Assembly: GCF_900215575.1 (NCBI RefSeq)
Contig: NZ_OBEJ01000001.1
Location: 558,001 to 622,000 of the forward strand
DNA length: 64,000 nt
Direction of reading: 5' to 3'
From: Natronoarchaeum philippinense
Lineage (GTDB): Archaea; Halobacteriota; Halobacteria; Halobacteriales; Natronoarchaeaceae
Position 1 is the first letter of the stretch, and each line of letters starts with the position of its first letter. Shown piece after piece: positions 6,693 to 37,084 of this stretch. Below the pieces are notes generated by a model. That model saw only the letters and a list, made by a program, of their open reading frames with translations, was not told the DNA's origin and did not search any database. The position numbers and the translations under genes are program-made.

Positions 6693-7865
6693 TCAGGCGC
6701 CGAGATCGAAGTGCTCGGCCGCGGTCTGCATGTCCTTGTCGCCGCGCCCGCTCAGGTTCACGAGGATCACGTCGTGCTCGTCGGCGAGTTGCTCGGCGAG
6801 CGCGATGCCGTGGCTGGTCTCCAGCGCCGGGATAATTCCCTCGGTGCGACTGAGCTTGCGGAACGCGTCGAGAGCCTCGTCGTCGGTGACGCCGCGGTAC
6901 TCGGCGCGCCCGCTCGCGCGGAACATCGCGTGCTCCGGGCCGACGCCGGGGTAGTCGAGTCCGGCCGACACCGAGTGGACCTCGACGTCGTCGTCGATGA
7001 CGCGCGTCTTCATGCCGTGGATCACGTCGTCGTTGCCGGCGTCGAGCGGCGCGGCGTGACGCTTCGAGTCAGCGCCCTCGCCGCCGCCCTCGGCGCCGTA
7101 GAGCGCGACCTCCTCGTCGTCCCGGAACGCGTCGAACAGCCCCATCGCGTTCGACCCGCCGCCGACGCAGGCCACTGCGGCGTCGGGCAACTGGCCCGCC
7201 TGTTCGAGGATCTGGTCGCGGGCCTCGCGGCCGAGCACCGACTGGAAGTCCCGAACGATCCGCGGGAAGGGGTCGGGCCCGACGACCGATCCGACGAGGT
7301 AGTGAGTGTCGTCGATGTTCTCGATCATGTCCTCCAACGCGGCGTCGACGGCGTCGGCCAGTCCCGCGCCGCCGCGGGTGACCTCGTTGACCTCGGCGCC
7401 CATCAGGCGCATCCTGAAGACGTTCATCCGCTGGCGCTCGACGTCTTTCTCGCCCATGTAGATCTCCGTGTCAAGATCGAACATCGCGCCGACCATCGCC
7501 GTCGCGGTGCCGTGCTGACCAGCACCAGTCTCGGCGATCAGGCGCTCCTTGCCCGCCTTCTTGGCCAGCAGCGCTTGGCCGATGGCGTTGTTCATCTTGT
7601 GGGCGCCGCCGTGGAGCAGATCCTCGCGCTTGAAGTAGACCTCGGCGCCGACGGCCTCCGAGAAGCGCTCTGCGTGGTACAGCGGCGTCGGCCGGCCGGC
7701 GTACTGTTCGAGGATCTCGCGGAACTCGGCTTCGAACTCCGGCGTCTGTGCGATCTCGTCGTAGCCCGCCGCGAGCTGGTCAAGTGCGTCTTCCATCGGT
7801 TCGGGGACGTGGCGTCCCCCGTACTGCTCGAACTGCCCGTCGTCGTGTCGAGATTGCTGAGACAT
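6693..7865 (-). CDS. trpB: Tryptophan synthase beta chain
   Basis: PLP enzyme that joins indole and serine to make tryptophan. The 390-residue length and the [13 protein letters not shown] segment (PLP lysine Lys90) fit the TrpB1 type; catalytic Glu112 lies in AETGAGQHG, and the phosphate loop GGGSNAMG and C-terminal LSGRGDKD are present. In many haloarchaea trpB lies between trpC and trpA. Here neither is adjacent: the upstream neighbour is an ABC permease and the downstream neighbour an unknown protein, so the alpha subunit must come from another locus. Confidence 0.95.
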
Positions 7866-31040: not shown

Positions 31041-31129
31041 TCGAGAGCACGGTAACCGAGAGCAACGGTGCCGCGTCCGGCGCGCACGATGCCGATAGCT
31101 CTTTATTTCGATAGCGCTTGCGTCCTGTC

Positions 31130-32095
31130 GTGACGACGGAACTAGCCGCCCCGCTCGCTATCGAGTCGCTGTGGGCGACCGGGACGCGCAACATCTTCGT
31201 CTGGGCCGCCATCGCCGCCTTCCTCCTCACCGCCGCGCTCGAACTGACCGGCCGGACGCGCACCGCGCGGACGACCGGCGCCGCGGCGTGGGTCGTCTTC
31301 GGCGTGTTCTGGCTGCTGATGTTCCCGTACTTCGCCTTCGACGCGAAGAGCATCATCGAGGGCGTCCTGAGCCTCGCCGGACTGCCGCTGTCGCTGTACG
31401 CGGCGTACCTGCTCTACACGGGCCGGGACTCGCTGTTGATCCTCTCGCGGGCGGTTGCGATGATGGGACTGCTGTACCTGCCCGCGATGACGATTCCAGC
31501 CGTCAAGGTGTTCCTCATCGAGACGGTCGCCCAGCAGGCCCACTTCGGAATGGAACTGCTCGGCTATTCGCCGGGCATCGAGACCGGCAAGAACGGCTAC
31601 CAGAGCCGCTTTGCCTTCGAGGGGTACTCGACGTACATCGTGCTCTCGTGTACCGGCATTGGTAGCATCTCGATCTTCGGCGGCGCGATTCTTGCGGTGC
31701 GCGCGCCGCTGGCCCGGAAAGCCAAGGCGTTCGCGCTCGCGGTCGGCGTCATCTGGATCGCCAACCTCGCCCGGAACGTGTTCGTCGGGCTGGCGGCGCC
31801 GCTTGGCTGGTTCGACTACCCGATCTTCAACACGATCACGGACACGCTCGCCGGCGAGTCGATGGTGACCTCCTTTTACGTCTCCCATCACCTGATCTCC
31901 CAGACGCTGTCGGTGCTCGCGCTGGTCGGCATCACCCTGCTCGTGGTTCGGGTGCTTCCGGAACTGTTCGCGGTCCTCGACGAGATTCTGTTCGTGCTGA
32001 CCGGCACCGAGTACGACCTCCAGTCCGAACTTGCACCCTCTAACGACGCCGGCACCGTGGGACAGGTCGACGCCGCCGATCCGGGCGACGACTGA
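31130..32095 (+). CDS. artA: Archaeosortase A
   Basis: Integral membrane transpeptidase-like enzyme that removes the PGF-CTERM signal from surface proteins such as the S-layer glycoprotein and anchors them to lipid. The 321-residue protein has about eight membrane helices. The catalytic Cys174 is in VLSCTGIGS and Arg215 is in NLARNVFVG. A conserved third-site region reads SFYVSHHLISQ (His253/His254). The GTG at 31130 is the likely start; ctttattt (31100-31107) is a TATA box at proper spacing. It is directly followed by a phosphoesterase gene. Confidence 0.93.
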   Translation: MTTELAAPLAIESLWATGTRNIFVWAAIAAFLLTAALELTGRTRTARTTGAAAWVVFGVFWLLMFPYFAFDAKSIIEGVLSLAGLPLSLYAAYLLYTGRDSLLILSRAVAMMGLLYLPAMTIPAVKVFLIETVAQQAHFGMELLGYSPGIETGKNGYQSRFAFEGYSTYIVLSCTGIGSISIFGGAILAVRAPLARKAKAFALAVGVIWIANLARNVFVGLAAPLGWFDYPIFNTITDTLAGESMVTSFYVSHHLISQTLSVLALVGITLLVVRVLPELFAVLDEILFVLTGTEYDLQSELAPSNDAGTVGQVDAADPGDD

Positions 32096-32812
32096 ATGCC
32101 CTCGCTGGACGCCGAGTTTTGCGACCGCGCGGTCTACCTGCCCGGTGCGGACGCGCTCGTCTGTGCCGACCTGCATCTCGGGCGGGACGCCGACTCGAAC
32201 GTCGAGTTACCCGTCGGCGAGCGCGAGGACATCGAGGGGCGAATCGAGACGCTGCTGGCGAGATTCGAGCCCGACGAGGTCGTCGTCGCTGGCGACGCGC
32301 TCCACGCGTTCGACCGGCTCCCCGACGGCGTCGCCGCGTCGCTGGCCGACCTCGCCGAGACAATCCACGGTGCTGGCGCTGACCTCTCTATCGCGGTCGG
32401 GAACCACGATACGATGCTCCACGCCGCCGTCGCGGAGGGCATCGACGCCGTGTCCGTCACCGACGAGCACCGACTCGGCGGCGACGGCGCCGTCGTCCTG
32501 CACGGCCACGAGCCGCCCGAGGCCGACGCCGGGCTGTACGTCTGCGGGCACGTCCACCCCGCGATCAGGATCGAAGGCCAACGGCGTCCCTGCTACCTCT
32601 TTGACGAGGGGAGCGACGACGGCGCCGACGTGCTCGTCGTGCCGGCGTTCACCCGGCTCGCGGCCGGCTCGCTGGTCAATCGCTCGCGGCGCGGCGGCGT
32701 CGAGACGCCGCTTTTGGGTCGACTCGGCGACGTTCGGCCGATCGTCCGCGACGACGACGCCGACGAGACGTTCTGGTTCCCGCCGCTGGCTGAGTTTCGG
32801 TCGATGCTGTGA
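32096..32812 (+). CDS. Calcineurin-like metallophosphoesterase
   Basis: A 238-residue metal-dependent phosphoesterase. The five metal motifs are visible: CADLHLG (about 23-29), VAGDALH (about 63-69), VGNHDTM (about 99-105), LHGHE (about 138) and VCGHVHP (about 150). It belongs to the archaeal MJ0037-like group related to the SbcD/Mre11 fold, and its substrate is not known. The start codon follows the artA stop directly, so the two form an operon; the same pairing occurs in other haloarchaea as far as I recall. Confidence 0.9.
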   Translation: MPSLDAEFCDRAVYLPGADALVCADLHLGRDADSNVELPVGEREDIEGRIETLLARFEPDEVVVAGDALHAFDRLPDGVAASLADLAETIHGAGADLSIAVGNHDTMLHAAVAEGIDAVSVTDEHRLGGDGAVVLHGHEPPEADAGLYVCGHVHPAIRIEGQRRPCYLFDEGSDDGADVLVVPAFTRLAAGSLVNRSRRGGVETPLLGRLGDVRPIVRDDDADETFWFPPLAEFRSML

Positions 32813-32852: not shown

Positions 32853-34124
32853 TCAGAGATCTGATAGCGCGGTCTGAGCGGCGTCCCGGCCGCTCTCTAA
32901 GGCGCCCTGAATCGACGACCAGCGGGTGTAGTCGCCGGCGAGGTAACACCGGCCGTCGGGGTCGTCGACGCCGGGCAGTTCGTCGAGACGCCCCGGCGGC
33001 TGTCGGAACTGCGCGAACGGAATGCGCTCGGTGTGGAGCAACTCGAAGTCCGCAAACGAGCGCTCGGGATACCACGACGACAGCGCGCGCCGGGTCATGT
33101 CGTCGAGTCGCGCGGGCTGTTCGTCCCGGTCGCCGAGGAACGTCGCGCTGACGAGGTGGCGGTCCTCGGGCGCGTGTTCGGGGGCGATCTCGGAGTTGAC
33201 GACGACGTGGTTGGGGTCCTCGCGGCCCGCGTTGAGGATGATGCGCTTGCCGGCGTCGAGCGACTCCGAGCGAGGCATCGAGTAGTACTGCGTGACACAG
33301 CCCGCGCCGTCGGTCGGCACGGCGTCGACGCCGGTCAGATCGCGGGCCGTCGGCGGGTCGGTCGCCACGACGACGGCGTCAGCGGTCCGCGTTTCGGCGC
33401 CGACCTCGACGGTCGCGCGCTCGTCGTCGGCGTCGACCGCCTCGACCGTCTCCCCGGTCGTGATCGTCACGCCGGCCTCGCGGGCCCGCTCGGCGAGTTG
33501 CTCGGGGATTGCACCCATACCCTCGGCCGGGACAGCGATCTGGCCCTCGGTGAGCATCTTGAACGTGTACTCGAACACCTTCCGCGAACTCGACAGCGAG
33601 CGATCGAGCGTGATGCCGCCGTAAAACGGCGCGGCGAAGTTCTCGATGAACCGATCGGAAAAGCCCCGGTCGCGGAGATACTCGCTGATCGGCCGATCCC
33701 GACCGCTGAAGATCGCCGTCTCGGTCTTGTCGGCCAGATCGCGGCGGAGCTTCAGCGTCCGGAGCTTGTCGCCCATCGAGACCTCGGTGTTGAGCGCTGA
33801 CGCGAACAGCGCAGAGCGATCCCGAAACGGATCCGAGAGGATCGAACGCTCGCCCTCGCGGGCGATGCAGGCGCCCGGCGTGAACCGACGCAGATCGAGC
33901 GCGTCGTAGTCGAGTTCCCGCTTCGCGGCGGGGTAGGCGGTGAACAGCACCTGAAAGCCCTTGTCCATCACGAAGCCATCGTCGTGGACCGTGCGGACGC
34001 GTCCGCCGACGGTGTCCCGGCGCTCGACGACCTCCACGTCGACACCGGCGTCCGCGAGGTGGCGTGCGGCGACCAGACCGGCCAGCCCCGCGCCGGCCAC
34101 GATCACGCGCGTATCAGTTGACAT
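32853..34124 (-). CDS. NAD(P)/FAD-dependent oxidoreductase (phytoene desaturase-like)
   Basis: A 423-residue flavoprotein of the amine oxidase/phytoene desaturase superfamily. The dinucleotide-binding GAGLAG (about 11-16) is followed by Glu34 and GGRVRT, and the C-terminal FAD-binding segment is YLAGDYTRWSSIQGALESG. Middle marks are FMDKGFQVL-like VMDKGFQVL and FAAPFYGGITLDR. The class includes carotenoid desaturases and isomerases; no other carotenoid gene is nearby, so the substrate is open. The start at 34124 (MSTDTRVIVAG) puts the FAD motif at the usual distance. Confidence 0.9.
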   Translation of the reverse strand: MSTDTRVIVAGAGLAGLVAARHLADAGVDVEVVERRDTVGGRVRTVHDDGFVMDKGFQVLFTAYPAAKRELDYDALDLRRFTPGACIAREGERSILSDPFRDRSALFASALNTEVSMGDKLRTLKLRRDLADKTETAIFSGRDRPISEYLRDRGFSDRFIENFAAPFYGGITLDRSLSSSRKVFEYTFKMLTEGQIAVPAEGMGAIPEQLAERAREAGVTITTGETVEAVDADDERATVEVGAETRTADAVVVATDPPTARDLTGVDAVPTDGAGCVTQYYSMPRSESLDAGKRIILNAGREDPNHVVVNSEIAPEHAPEDRHLVSATFLGDRDEQPARLDDMTRRALSSWYPERSFADFELLHTERIPFAQFRQPPGRLDELPGVDDPDGRCYLAGDYTRWSSIQGALESGRDAAQTALSDL

Positions 34125-34232
34125 ACCGGTTCGTTGGAACTCCCCGGTCAAAACTCCACCCGTGTCGGTGGCGGTCGTTGTGACTCGGGTGCCCGTGTCA
34201 GATTCTTTTGTCAGGTCGTCGTACCCTCAAGT

Positions 34233-34898: not shown

Positions 34899-34993
34899 GT
34901 GGTAGCAGTACCACACACGTCCTTTGGAGAAACCGCGAGTACCACAGAGTGCGCTGAAAGTGGGAGTGCCCACAGATGCGCACAGAGTGGTAC
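34899..34993. promoter_or_regulatory. Cluster of GTACCAC/GTGGTAC elements and nested inverted repeats before a HalOD1 gene
   Basis: GTGGTA-GCAG-TACCAC (34899-34914) is a perfect 6-bp stem. GTACCACAGAGTGCGC (34939-34954) and GCGCACAGAGTGGTAC (34978-34993) form a 16-bp inverted repeat with 13 matches. Its 23-bp spacer contains a further stem, GTGGG-AGTG-CCCAC. The outer repeat ends one base before the ATG at 34995. It may be an operator array or an RNA hairpin covering the start. Confidence 0.65.
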
Positions 34994-34994
34994 A

Positions 34995-35294
34995 ATGGTG
35001 ACTGAACCTAACACAACCGTCCTCGAAGCATCGACCGAACGGACACCGCTGTGTTACCGACAGTCGGCAGACGAGTCGCTCACCGAGGCGATCGTCACCG
35101 CAGTGTGTGACCGCGCCGACGCCGATACGACCGAACTGTCCCCGCTGTACGCTACGATCGATCCCGACGCCCTAGAGTCGCTGCTCGGCAGTCGAGCCGA
35201 CGGTAGCCCCCGTAACAGCTATCGCTCGGTCGCCTTCGAGTACGAGTCGTACCACGTGCAGGTCGAGAGCGGCGGGCTGATCACTGTGAACTGA
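34995..35294 (+). CDS. Stand-alone HalOD1 output domain protein
   Basis: A 99-residue protein made almost only of one HalOD1 domain (about 22-99): SLTEAIVTAVCDRADADTTELSPLYATIDPDALESLL, then YRSVAFEYESYHVQVESGGLITV. HalOD1 is a haloarchaeal output domain found alone or attached to receiver domains; its molecular action is unknown. The start at 34995 (MVTEPNTT) lies directly after a nested inverted repeat. A second HalOD1 gene is at 36642-36935 on the other strand. Confidence 0.88.
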   Translation: MVTEPNTTVLEASTERTPLCYRQSADESLTEAIVTAVCDRADADTTELSPLYATIDPDALESLLGSRADGSPRNSYRSVAFEYESYHVQVESGGLITVN

Positions 35295-35427: not shown

Positions 35428-36618
35428 ATGCAAACGAGCGACGCCCTCGTCGGACTGGAGTGTTACGAGTGTGGCGACCGCGTCGACCCGGCCGACGCTG
35501 ACCAACGTTGTCCCGAGTGTGGCGGTGCGCTCGACCCGGCGTACGACTACGAGCAGATCGACCTCGACAGGGAGACGCTCGACGCGCGCCCGTTCGACAG
35601 TCAGTGGCGCTACCGCGAGCTGTTGCCGTTCGATCCTGACACGGCAGCGAGCCTCGACGAAGGCGGGACGCCGCTGGTCGAAGGGCCGTCGCTCGCCGGC
35701 GAACTCGGTGTCGGCGAACTGTATCTCAAAGACGACGGCCGCAACCCGACCGGCTCGACCGCCGACCGTGGCCTCTCGGTCGCGGTGACTGCGGCACGAG
35801 AACACGGCGCCGGCGATGTCGCCTTGGCGTCGACCGGCGACGGCGGGCAGTCGGCGGCCGCCTACGCCGCGCGGGCCGGTCTCGACGCCCACGCGTTTCT
35901 CCCCTCGCGGTCGCCGTTTACCAACAAGGCGATGGTCAACGTCCACGACGGCGACATGACCGTCGTCGGCGGGCGGATCGGCGACGCGCTCGACGCCGCC
36001 GGCGAGGAGATCGAAGCCGAAGGCTGGCACGATCTCGGCTGGTTCGAGACGCCCTACCGCCGCGAGGGCGTCAAGACCGCGCTGTTCGAGATCGTCGAGC
36101 AACTGGCGTGGGACGTGCCCGACGCCGTCGTCGTGCCGACGGGGTCCGGCGTCGTCGCAGTCGGCGTCCACAAGGCGGCGACCGAACTCGAACGGCTCGG
36201 CCTGATCGAGGACGCACCGGCGATCTACGTCGCGCAGGCAGCCGGCTGTGCGCCGATCGTCGACGCGTGGGAGGACGGCCGCGACGAGCCCGAGCCGGTC
36301 GAGTACCCCGACACGATCTGTGGCGGCATCGAGGTTCCCGACCCGCCGGCCGGCTCGCTCGTGCTCGACGCCGTCGCAGAAACCGACGGCGGCGCCGTCG
36401 CGGTCGAGGACCCCGCCATCCTCGACAGCGCGATCGCAGTCGCTGCGAACGAGGGAATCGAAGTCGGCGCCAGCGCGGCCGCGGCAGTCGCCGGGGCGTG
36501 GGAGCTATCGCGCGAGGGCGTCTTCGACGAGACCGATTCGGTCGTCGTGCTCAACACCGGTGCGGGCTCGAAGTCCGACGACGTGCTCCGGAGCCACCTG
36601 ATGGGACAGGGCATCTAA
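35428..36618 (+). CDS. Threonine synthase-like fold-type II protein lacking the PLP lysine
   Basis: A 396-residue protein with the architecture of archaeal threonine synthase: an N-terminal zinc ribbon (CYECG at 12-16, CPECGG at 28-33), then the PLP fold-type II core. The region that should read NPTGSFKDRG reads NPTGSTADRG (106-115), so the Schiff-base lysine is Ala112 (gcc at 35761-35763). The substrate-binding SSGN-type loop reads STGDGGQSAAAY, with Asp138 where Asn is usual. The phosphate loop PTGSGVVAVG is kept. Without the lysine it should not act as a normal PLP enzyme, so a regulatory, scaffolding or altered role is inferred. Confidence 0.85.
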   Translation: MQTSDALVGLECYECGDRVDPADADQRCPECGGALDPAYDYEQIDLDRETLDARPFDSQWRYRELLPFDPDTAASLDEGGTPLVEGPSLAGELGVGELYLKDDGRNPTGSTADRGLSVAVTAAREHGAGDVALASTGDGGQSAAAYAARAGLDAHAFLPSRSPFTNKAMVNVHDGDMTVVGGRIGDALDAAGEEIEAEGWHDLGWFETPYRREGVKTALFEIVEQLAWDVPDAVVVPTGSGVVAVGVHKAATELERLGLIEDAPAIYVAQAAGCAPIVDAWEDGRDEPEPVEYPDTICGGIEVPDPPAGSLVLDAVAETDGGAVAVEDPAILDSAIAVAANEGIEVGASAAAAVAGAWELSREGVFDETDSVVVLNTGAGSKSDDVLRSHLMGQGI

Positions 36619-36641: not shown

Positions 36642-36935
36642 CTAGAGCGGCCGCGCACGAACGTCGGCCTCGGTGAGCGTGATCTTGTAGCCCGCGTACG
36701 GAAAGACGAAGCTCCCCACACCGTCCAGTGACTCGTGGATATCATCGAGCGCTTCGGGGTCGACGCTTTCGTACAGCGGCACGAGCGTCTCAGAGTCCAT
36801 CTCTTCGAGCGCGGCAACGAACTCGACGACAGCGAGCGAGGGGGACTCAGCGGGGCAGGCTTCCAGCGGGACCGAGTAGACGCCAGCGGCGTCGTCGTAC
36901 GCGATGGCGTCGTCGGAGAGGGTACTGGTATCCAT
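36642..36935 (-). CDS. Stand-alone HalOD1 output domain protein
   Basis: A 97-residue protein with one HalOD1 domain (about 28-92): SLAVVEFVAALEEMDSETLVPLYESVDPEALDDIHESL, then GSFVFPYAGYKITLTEADV. The first 27 residues are a variable lead. The start at 36935 (MDTSTLSDDA) is the domain-consistent choice; a longer reading would add 43 basic, Arg-rich residues unlike the family. It is convergent with the threonine-synthase-like gene, and that gene is thus bracketed by two HalOD1 genes. Confidence 0.85.
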   Translation of the reverse strand: MDTSTLSDDAIAYDDAAGVYSVPLEACPAESPSLAVVEFVAALEEMDSETLVPLYESVDPEALDDIHESLDGVGSFVFPYAGYKITLTEADVRARPL

Positions 36936-37084
36936 CGCTACCCGCGGTAGTTCGGTCCGAGTTCGTATCAATGTTTGTGTATGGTCAACACGGACCAATC
37001 GACGGCGTCGGTACGGGAGCGTTCGGGGGCAGAAAGACGCCGCTGGCCGGGACGCCAGTGCCAAAAACAGCGACGGCGCCGCGA

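Follow-up and report, generated by a model that had tools for sequence, protein, structure and literature searches.

The gene at positions 35428-36618 of the window (the window being the whole stretch of 64,000 nucleotides from Natronoarchaeum philippinense that was analysed) appears to encode a PLP-independent pseudoenzyme with the threonine synthase (ThrC) fold, which kept a tail-linked second role of its PLP-enzyme ancestor after catalysis was dropped. We give this reading a probability of about 0.6. The ancestor would have been a PLP enzyme, with a substrate that was not necessarily O-phosphohomoserine, and would have performed a second job by means of its C-terminal helix, LRSHLMxxG(I/V)-COOH, together with N171, R183, P294, D295, G299, and E302. 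In the lineage of the window gene and in at least four others the lysine would then have been lost and the PLP pocket have decayed, while the second job was kept. On balance the evidence leans toward the enzyme half of a class-wide archaeal protein having been discarded at least five times independently, with the C-terminal second function nearly invariant. If this is true, the family shows nature turning an enzyme into a pseudoenzyme several times over, around a conserved haloarchaeal function yet to be discovered. An earlier note on this DNA had also proposed a pseudoenzyme, and this proposal is strengthened by the joint decay of the lysine, the phosphate loop and the N1-side threonine, by purifying selection, and by the presence of a canonical ThrC elsewhere in the genome.

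Fold and cofactor pocket

The features of the gene that concern its fold and its cofactor pocket are:

35428..36618, + strand: lysine-less gene of the ThrC fold (fold type II), 396 amino acids plus stop (translation, profile matches, predicted model)
35461..35520, + strand: zinc ribbon, C12-x2-C15 ... C28-x2-C31 (translation, family alignment)
35761..35763, + strand: position of the PLP lysine, Ala112 (GCC) (translation, codon read, family alignment)
35824..35850, + strand: substrate/O3' loop LASTGDGGQ (residues 133-141), LASAGNAGQ in lysine-bearing orthologues, with Asn138 replaced by Asp in the window
36133..36153, + strand: former PLP phosphate loop VPTGSGV (residues 236-242), YPTGGGV in lysine-bearing orthologues
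36556..36558, + strand: Thr377, PLP N1-side position, kept in the window protein and Pro or Ala in many lysine-less forms

The reading frame encodes 396 residues and contains no internal stops. Its product matches the Pfam family PALP (PF00291) with 214 bits and the TIGR00260 profile (thrC) with 146 bits, the latter under that profile's own cut-off of 167. NCBIfam NF006050 names it 'threonine synthase' with 345 bits, above the equivalog cut-off of 303, despite the missing PLP lysine, so the automated annotation of this gene in many haloarchaeal genomes is probably wrong.

An AlphaFold2 model of the protein, made with 93 family rows, has a mean pLDDT of 97.4 and a pTM of 0.95, and its secondary structure is much like that of a model of the lysine-bearing Halobacterium orthologue. 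When the model was compared with known structures using Foldseek and VIA-align, threonine synthases ranked first and the ThrC chains gave Z 41-50, with Arabidopsis 2c2b at 49.9, Bacillus 6nmx at 49.2, and Thermus 1v7c at 48.7. Together with the PALP match this places the protein among the threonine synthases and other fold-type-II PLP enzymes, in agreement with the earlier note, according to which the overall fold and the zinc ribbon remain; all four ribbon cysteines (C12, C15, C28, and C31) are there. The last helix of the model spans residues 380-393, the final residues are ordered (pLDDT 94 for the last block), and the structural alignment with 1v7c matches the C-terminus up to 1v7c residue 334. 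The tail is thus the C-terminal helix that the fold normally has, ending at a fixed point, and not an added arm.

The protein shares with threonine synthases (NF006050/TIGR00260; 1v7c, 2zsj, and 6nmx, Z 43-49) the NPTG--DRG loop, the SxGN-type loop and the region of R211, and canonical haloarchaeal ThrC has a similar N-terminal zinc ribbon. It differs from them in its exact C-terminus, LRSHLMxxG(I/V), in an altered phosphate loop and in lacking the PLP lysine. The residues around the lysine site are NPTGSTADRG, while lysine-bearing orthologues have NPTGTFKDRG, and codon 112 is indeed GCC, so that the Schiff-base lysine of a fold-type-II PLP enzyme is replaced by Ala112 as had been read from the sequence. 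A sequencing error at 35761-35763 is ruled out, as the orthologue in a congener (genome G242), 82% identical to the window protein, also has GCC at this site and 130 of the 221 family members are without the lysine. A lysine elsewhere in the alignment is likewise ruled out, the adjoining D113 and R114 being invariant in 221/221 members. The Asp138 for Asn was also found again (STGDGGQ in the window, SAGNAGQ in the lysine-bearing orthologues). The phosphate loop, said by the earlier note to remain, is present but altered, with one glycine replaced (PTGSG for PTGGG). The window protein therefore very probably forms no PLP Schiff base and does no PLP chemistry. Since Thr377 and most of the carboxylate loop are retained, it may, judged from its sequence, still bind PLP or another ligand non-covalently.

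A second, canonical thrC, for which a search had been proposed, is found at another site in the same genome, with the lysine motif NPTGSFKDRGMT, as are other fold-type-II genes. The window itself holds a second PF00291 match (6750-7700, - strand; G000:C1:564750-565700; 143 bits). Two equal-scoring ThrC-like copies (NPTGCFKDR) are found in genome G324, at C5:512-1654 and C5:446495-447637, near both contig ends. In Haloferax volcanii, an insertion mutant in thrC3 (HVO_2969) regained growth when Gly, Ser, and Thr were given in combination (PMC4300041). To judge by the name thrC3, this species has at least one further annotated thrC.

Orthologues, gene order and repeated loss of the lysine

Orthologues were sought in 391 halobacterial genomes and in the GTDB contig collection, and were found full length at about 57-82% identity. 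The initial searches, the searching of two other families, fetched regions and a profile scan together gave 221 different members, and the gene is present in nearly every haloarchaeal genome sampled. Second cluster matches in six loci were rejected as extra copies, being long or antisense open frames that share the cluster. T108, D113, R114, and G137 are invariant across all members. The lysine is present in 91 of these (K+) and absent from 130 (K-), where it is replaced by Leu (42), Ala (32), Thr (21), Val (12), Tyr (8), Arg (3), Asp (3), Ile (2), Gly (2), and, once each, Asn, Glu, His, Phe, and Gln. Alignment of the haloarchaeal paralogues, a check suggested by the earlier note, thus reveals a site that is lysine-less across the class with 14 different replacements, the Ala being found in the congener as well. 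The K+ orthologues, from Halobacterium, Haladaptatus, Halorussus, Natrialba, and Halostella, are 60-68% identical to the window protein. They resemble it in the tail and the tail-linked residues and, in several families, in gene neighbourhood, and differ in that the motifs NPTGTFKDRG, SAGNAGQ, YPTGGGV, and NTG are intact. From these motifs, they are probably active PLP enzymes.

The genes surrounding the window gene are:

32096..32812, + strand: metallophosphoesterase gene, recurrent neighbour (PF00149; synteny)
32853..34151, - strand: FAD-dependent amine-oxidase-like gene, recurrent divergent neighbour of the tail-bearing gene (PF01593, 198 bits; synteny)
34899..35294, + strand: stand-alone HalOD1 gene, upstream, not conserved (PF18545, 78 bits)
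36642..37064, - strand: stand-alone HalOD1 gene, downstream, not conserved (PF18545, 56 bits)

Whether K+ or K-, the tail-bearing gene has the flavin amine-oxidase gene as its divergent neighbour in several families, and the metallophosphoesterase gene and an HD gene are close by. This arrangement is broken in the Natrialbaceae, where the FAD gene is not adjacent, yet the surroundings there are common to K+ and K- copies. The common neighbourhood supports orthology more than it does any function, and gene order points to no clear partner, the FAD gene being adjacent in several families and not in the Natrialbaceae. The two flanking HalOD1 genes pointed out by the earlier note are real, but they are not conserved and carry no weight: neither was matched within the 1.5 kb flanks of the same-genus locus, and weak HalOD1 matches occur at only a handful of other loci. 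A functional link to HalOD1 was therefore dropped. The product of 31118-32095 (+ strand) of the window has no Pfam match at E 0.001, and presumably resembles archaeosortase-like membrane proteins.

For the trees, the columns of the lysine site and the tail were taken out of the alignment. With all 221 rows, a quick tree requires nine changes of lysine state, six of them forced by well-supported branches. After thinning to 62 rows, a careful tree under a mixture model requires five, all forced by starred branches and with a bootstrap 5-95% range of 5-5. Loss is the likelier direction, because the lysine is present in the outgroup-like copies and in the canonical ThrC proteins that were read. 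A few regains may have occurred, for instance in Natrinema, where three copies (L032, L043, and L065) have the lysine (TSKDRG) although their sequence is otherwise of K- character (G240A and G300E); the lysine has either been retained there amid decay or been regained.

Close sisters with and without the lysine are found inside genera or families, in common synteny. Such pairs are Natronorubrum bangense (TADR) and N. halalkaliphilum (FKDR), QS_9_68_17 (CNDR) and Halostella (FKDR), and genomes G018 (FRDR) and G012 (FKDR). In QS_9_68_17 the remainder of the PLP set is still intact, as expected of a recent loss, although this case is less certain as it comes from a metagenome assembly. Horizontal replacement by an unrelated paralogue is not favoured, since the gene neighbourhoods are common to K+ and K- copies. 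The recent losses next to intact sisters (the Halostella-like G327, Natronorubrum, and G018) constitute matched pairs for the study of the retained function in tractable haloarchaea, and with them one can measure directly in what order the pocket decays once the lysine is gone.

Two sets of conserved residues

Comparison of three groups, K- with tail, K+ with tail, and K+ without tail, separates two sets of residues. Set A is kept in both K+ groups and degenerate in the K- forms, and comprises K112, A139, Y236, G240, G243, H288, G300, T377, and a few others. From ThrC homology, that is from family knowledge and the alignment, we take it to include the PLP lysine, the phosphate loop and the N1-side threonine. 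Set B is kept in both tail-bearing groups and lost in the tail-less K+ copies, and consists of N171, G175, M177, R183, P294, D295, G299, E302, S389, M392, and G395. In the window it is found, with the tail, at:

35938..35940, + strand: Asn171, set B (three-group comparison)
35974..35976, + strand: Arg183, set B (three-group comparison)
36307..36333, + strand: PDTICGGIE (residues 294-302), with P294, D295, G299, and E302 of set B (three-group comparison)
36580..36615, + strand: conserved C-terminus DVLRSHLMGQGI-COOH (residues 385-396), found in 189/221 members and, as a DNA pattern, in 352/391 genomes

Both its exact C-terminus and set B make the window protein a member of the tail-bearing haloarchaeal group. 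Most members end exactly at D-V-L-R-S-H-L-M-x-x-G-(I/V). The DNA pattern for the tail and stop was matched in 76 of the 86 genera, normally at one site per genome, while a reversed control pattern gave three matches in the 391 genomes; in 59 relatives there were 35 matches and none for the control. Genome G017, with two sites, is the sole such case among the genome rows read. In most of the exceptions that were checked the gene has a variant last residue (L, M, F, or K) or a shortened tail, and set B is kept. The tail was not seen in the ThrC proteins of 17 non-halobacterial loci read elsewhere in the phylum. A signal at the DNA level is not favoured, as the tail codons vary synonymously.

Six residues of set B (N171, R183, P294, D295, G299, and E302) are all present in 186 of the 189 tail-bearing members, whatever their lysine state, and in none of the 29 tail-less K+ copies; the full six also occur in three K- members with a truncated sequence or a lost tail. 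The zinc ribbon falls outside the retained set because its cysteines, all four of which are kept in 74 of 91 thinned tail-bearing K- members, have been lost in some K- copies, such as L128 (genome G006) with SRAS for CxxC. The tail set is likely to mark a distinct retained function. The tail-less K+ copies are sited outside the conserved neighbourhood, and 27 of the 28 genomes that have one also have a tail-bearing copy, the exception being a 70%-complete genome; in 25 of these 27 the tail-bearing copy is without lysine. It looks as if the duplicates in such genomes had divided two functions between them. Both this division and the association of the tail with set B rest on few events, since most of the tail-less copies belong to a single clade, the others being a few that resemble outgroups.

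Possible retained function and competing explanations

Tentatively, and by analogy, the retained function could be allosteric regulation or the binding of a partner, and an amino-acid-like ligand in the retained carboxylate loop might act as its gate; a regulatory role was also among the suggestions of the earlier note. A precedent for an allosteric role kept after catalysis was lost is TSB-like, a TrpB pseudoenzyme of eudicots that allosterically activates its partner TSA (PMC12727527). Catalytically dead like the proposed pseudoenzyme, it is a paralogue with a related fold; structures of TrpB match the window model at Z of about 37. It differs in belonging to a plant family, in having a known partner and in being inactivated via two other residues, and the window protein is no member of that family at the sequence level. 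No paper on the window protein was found in the open library that was searched, though absence there is not proof.

The co-occurrence of tail-bearing and tail-less K+ copies in those 27 genomes would also suit a silent subunit, which would join either the tail-less K+ paralogue or a lysine-bearing ThrC in mixed oligomers. This is unlikely for the window protein, whose genome has no K+ member of the subfamily, only the canonical ThrC and more distant relatives.

Somewhat less probable still is a lysine-independent enzyme, where the pocket would bind substrate, and possibly PLP as an external aldimine, and other residues would perform a new chemistry. Most of the carboxylate loop S-x-G-N-x-G-Q survives in the K- forms (Asn in 96/130, Asp in 21/130, and the Gln in 124/130), and R211, H173, Q270, T108, D113, and R114 are at or near invariance there. 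However, the residues that the K- forms conserve are conserved in the tail-bearing K+ forms too, so that no gain of a catalytic residue was seen, and variation is free at the phosphate-loop and N1 positions. The earlier note had considered new chemistry; at the lysine site this is disfavoured because 14 different residues replace the lysine.

About equally improbable is a dying gene that has lost catalysis and is drifting toward a pseudogene. For pairs at 80-97% identity the median dN/dS (YN00) is 0.066 in K- forms (84 pairs), as against 0.037 in tail-bearing K+ forms (22 pairs) and 0.033 in tail-less K+ forms (5 pairs). By NG86 the window pair has dN 0.11 and dS 0.49, giving a dN/dS of about 0.23, compared with about 0.10-0.21 in other K- pairs and 0.02-0.04 in two K+ pairs. 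The window gene is thus constrained, yet on the loose side of the K- pairs; constraint may be weaker than the K- median, although 0.23 and 0.066 come from different methods. The gene is also lost or broken in some lineages, being not found in genome G162 and carrying three stops in genome G316, so it is not essential everywhere. Against drift, whole families are spanned by K- forms, the dN/dS values are well under 1, and full-length frames, the exact C-terminus and set B are preserved class-wide through about 40-60% identity. The catalytic residue is missing while the protein stays under purifying selection, as in a pseudoenzyme.

The most doubtful alternative has the GxG(I/V)-COOH tail bound in a fold-type-II active site, whether that of the protein itself or that of CysK or ThrC, for which there is a precedent in CysE, whose C-terminal Ile and its carboxylate are central to the interaction in the pocket of CysK (PMC9547175), and for which the aliphatic last residue with its free carboxylate and the conserved carboxylate-binding loop would be suited, but the CysE tail is a free arm while that of the window protein is modelled as an ordered helix of the core fold (380-393).

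In G316 (L122/L270) the broken tail-bearing copy has a second partial copy alongside.
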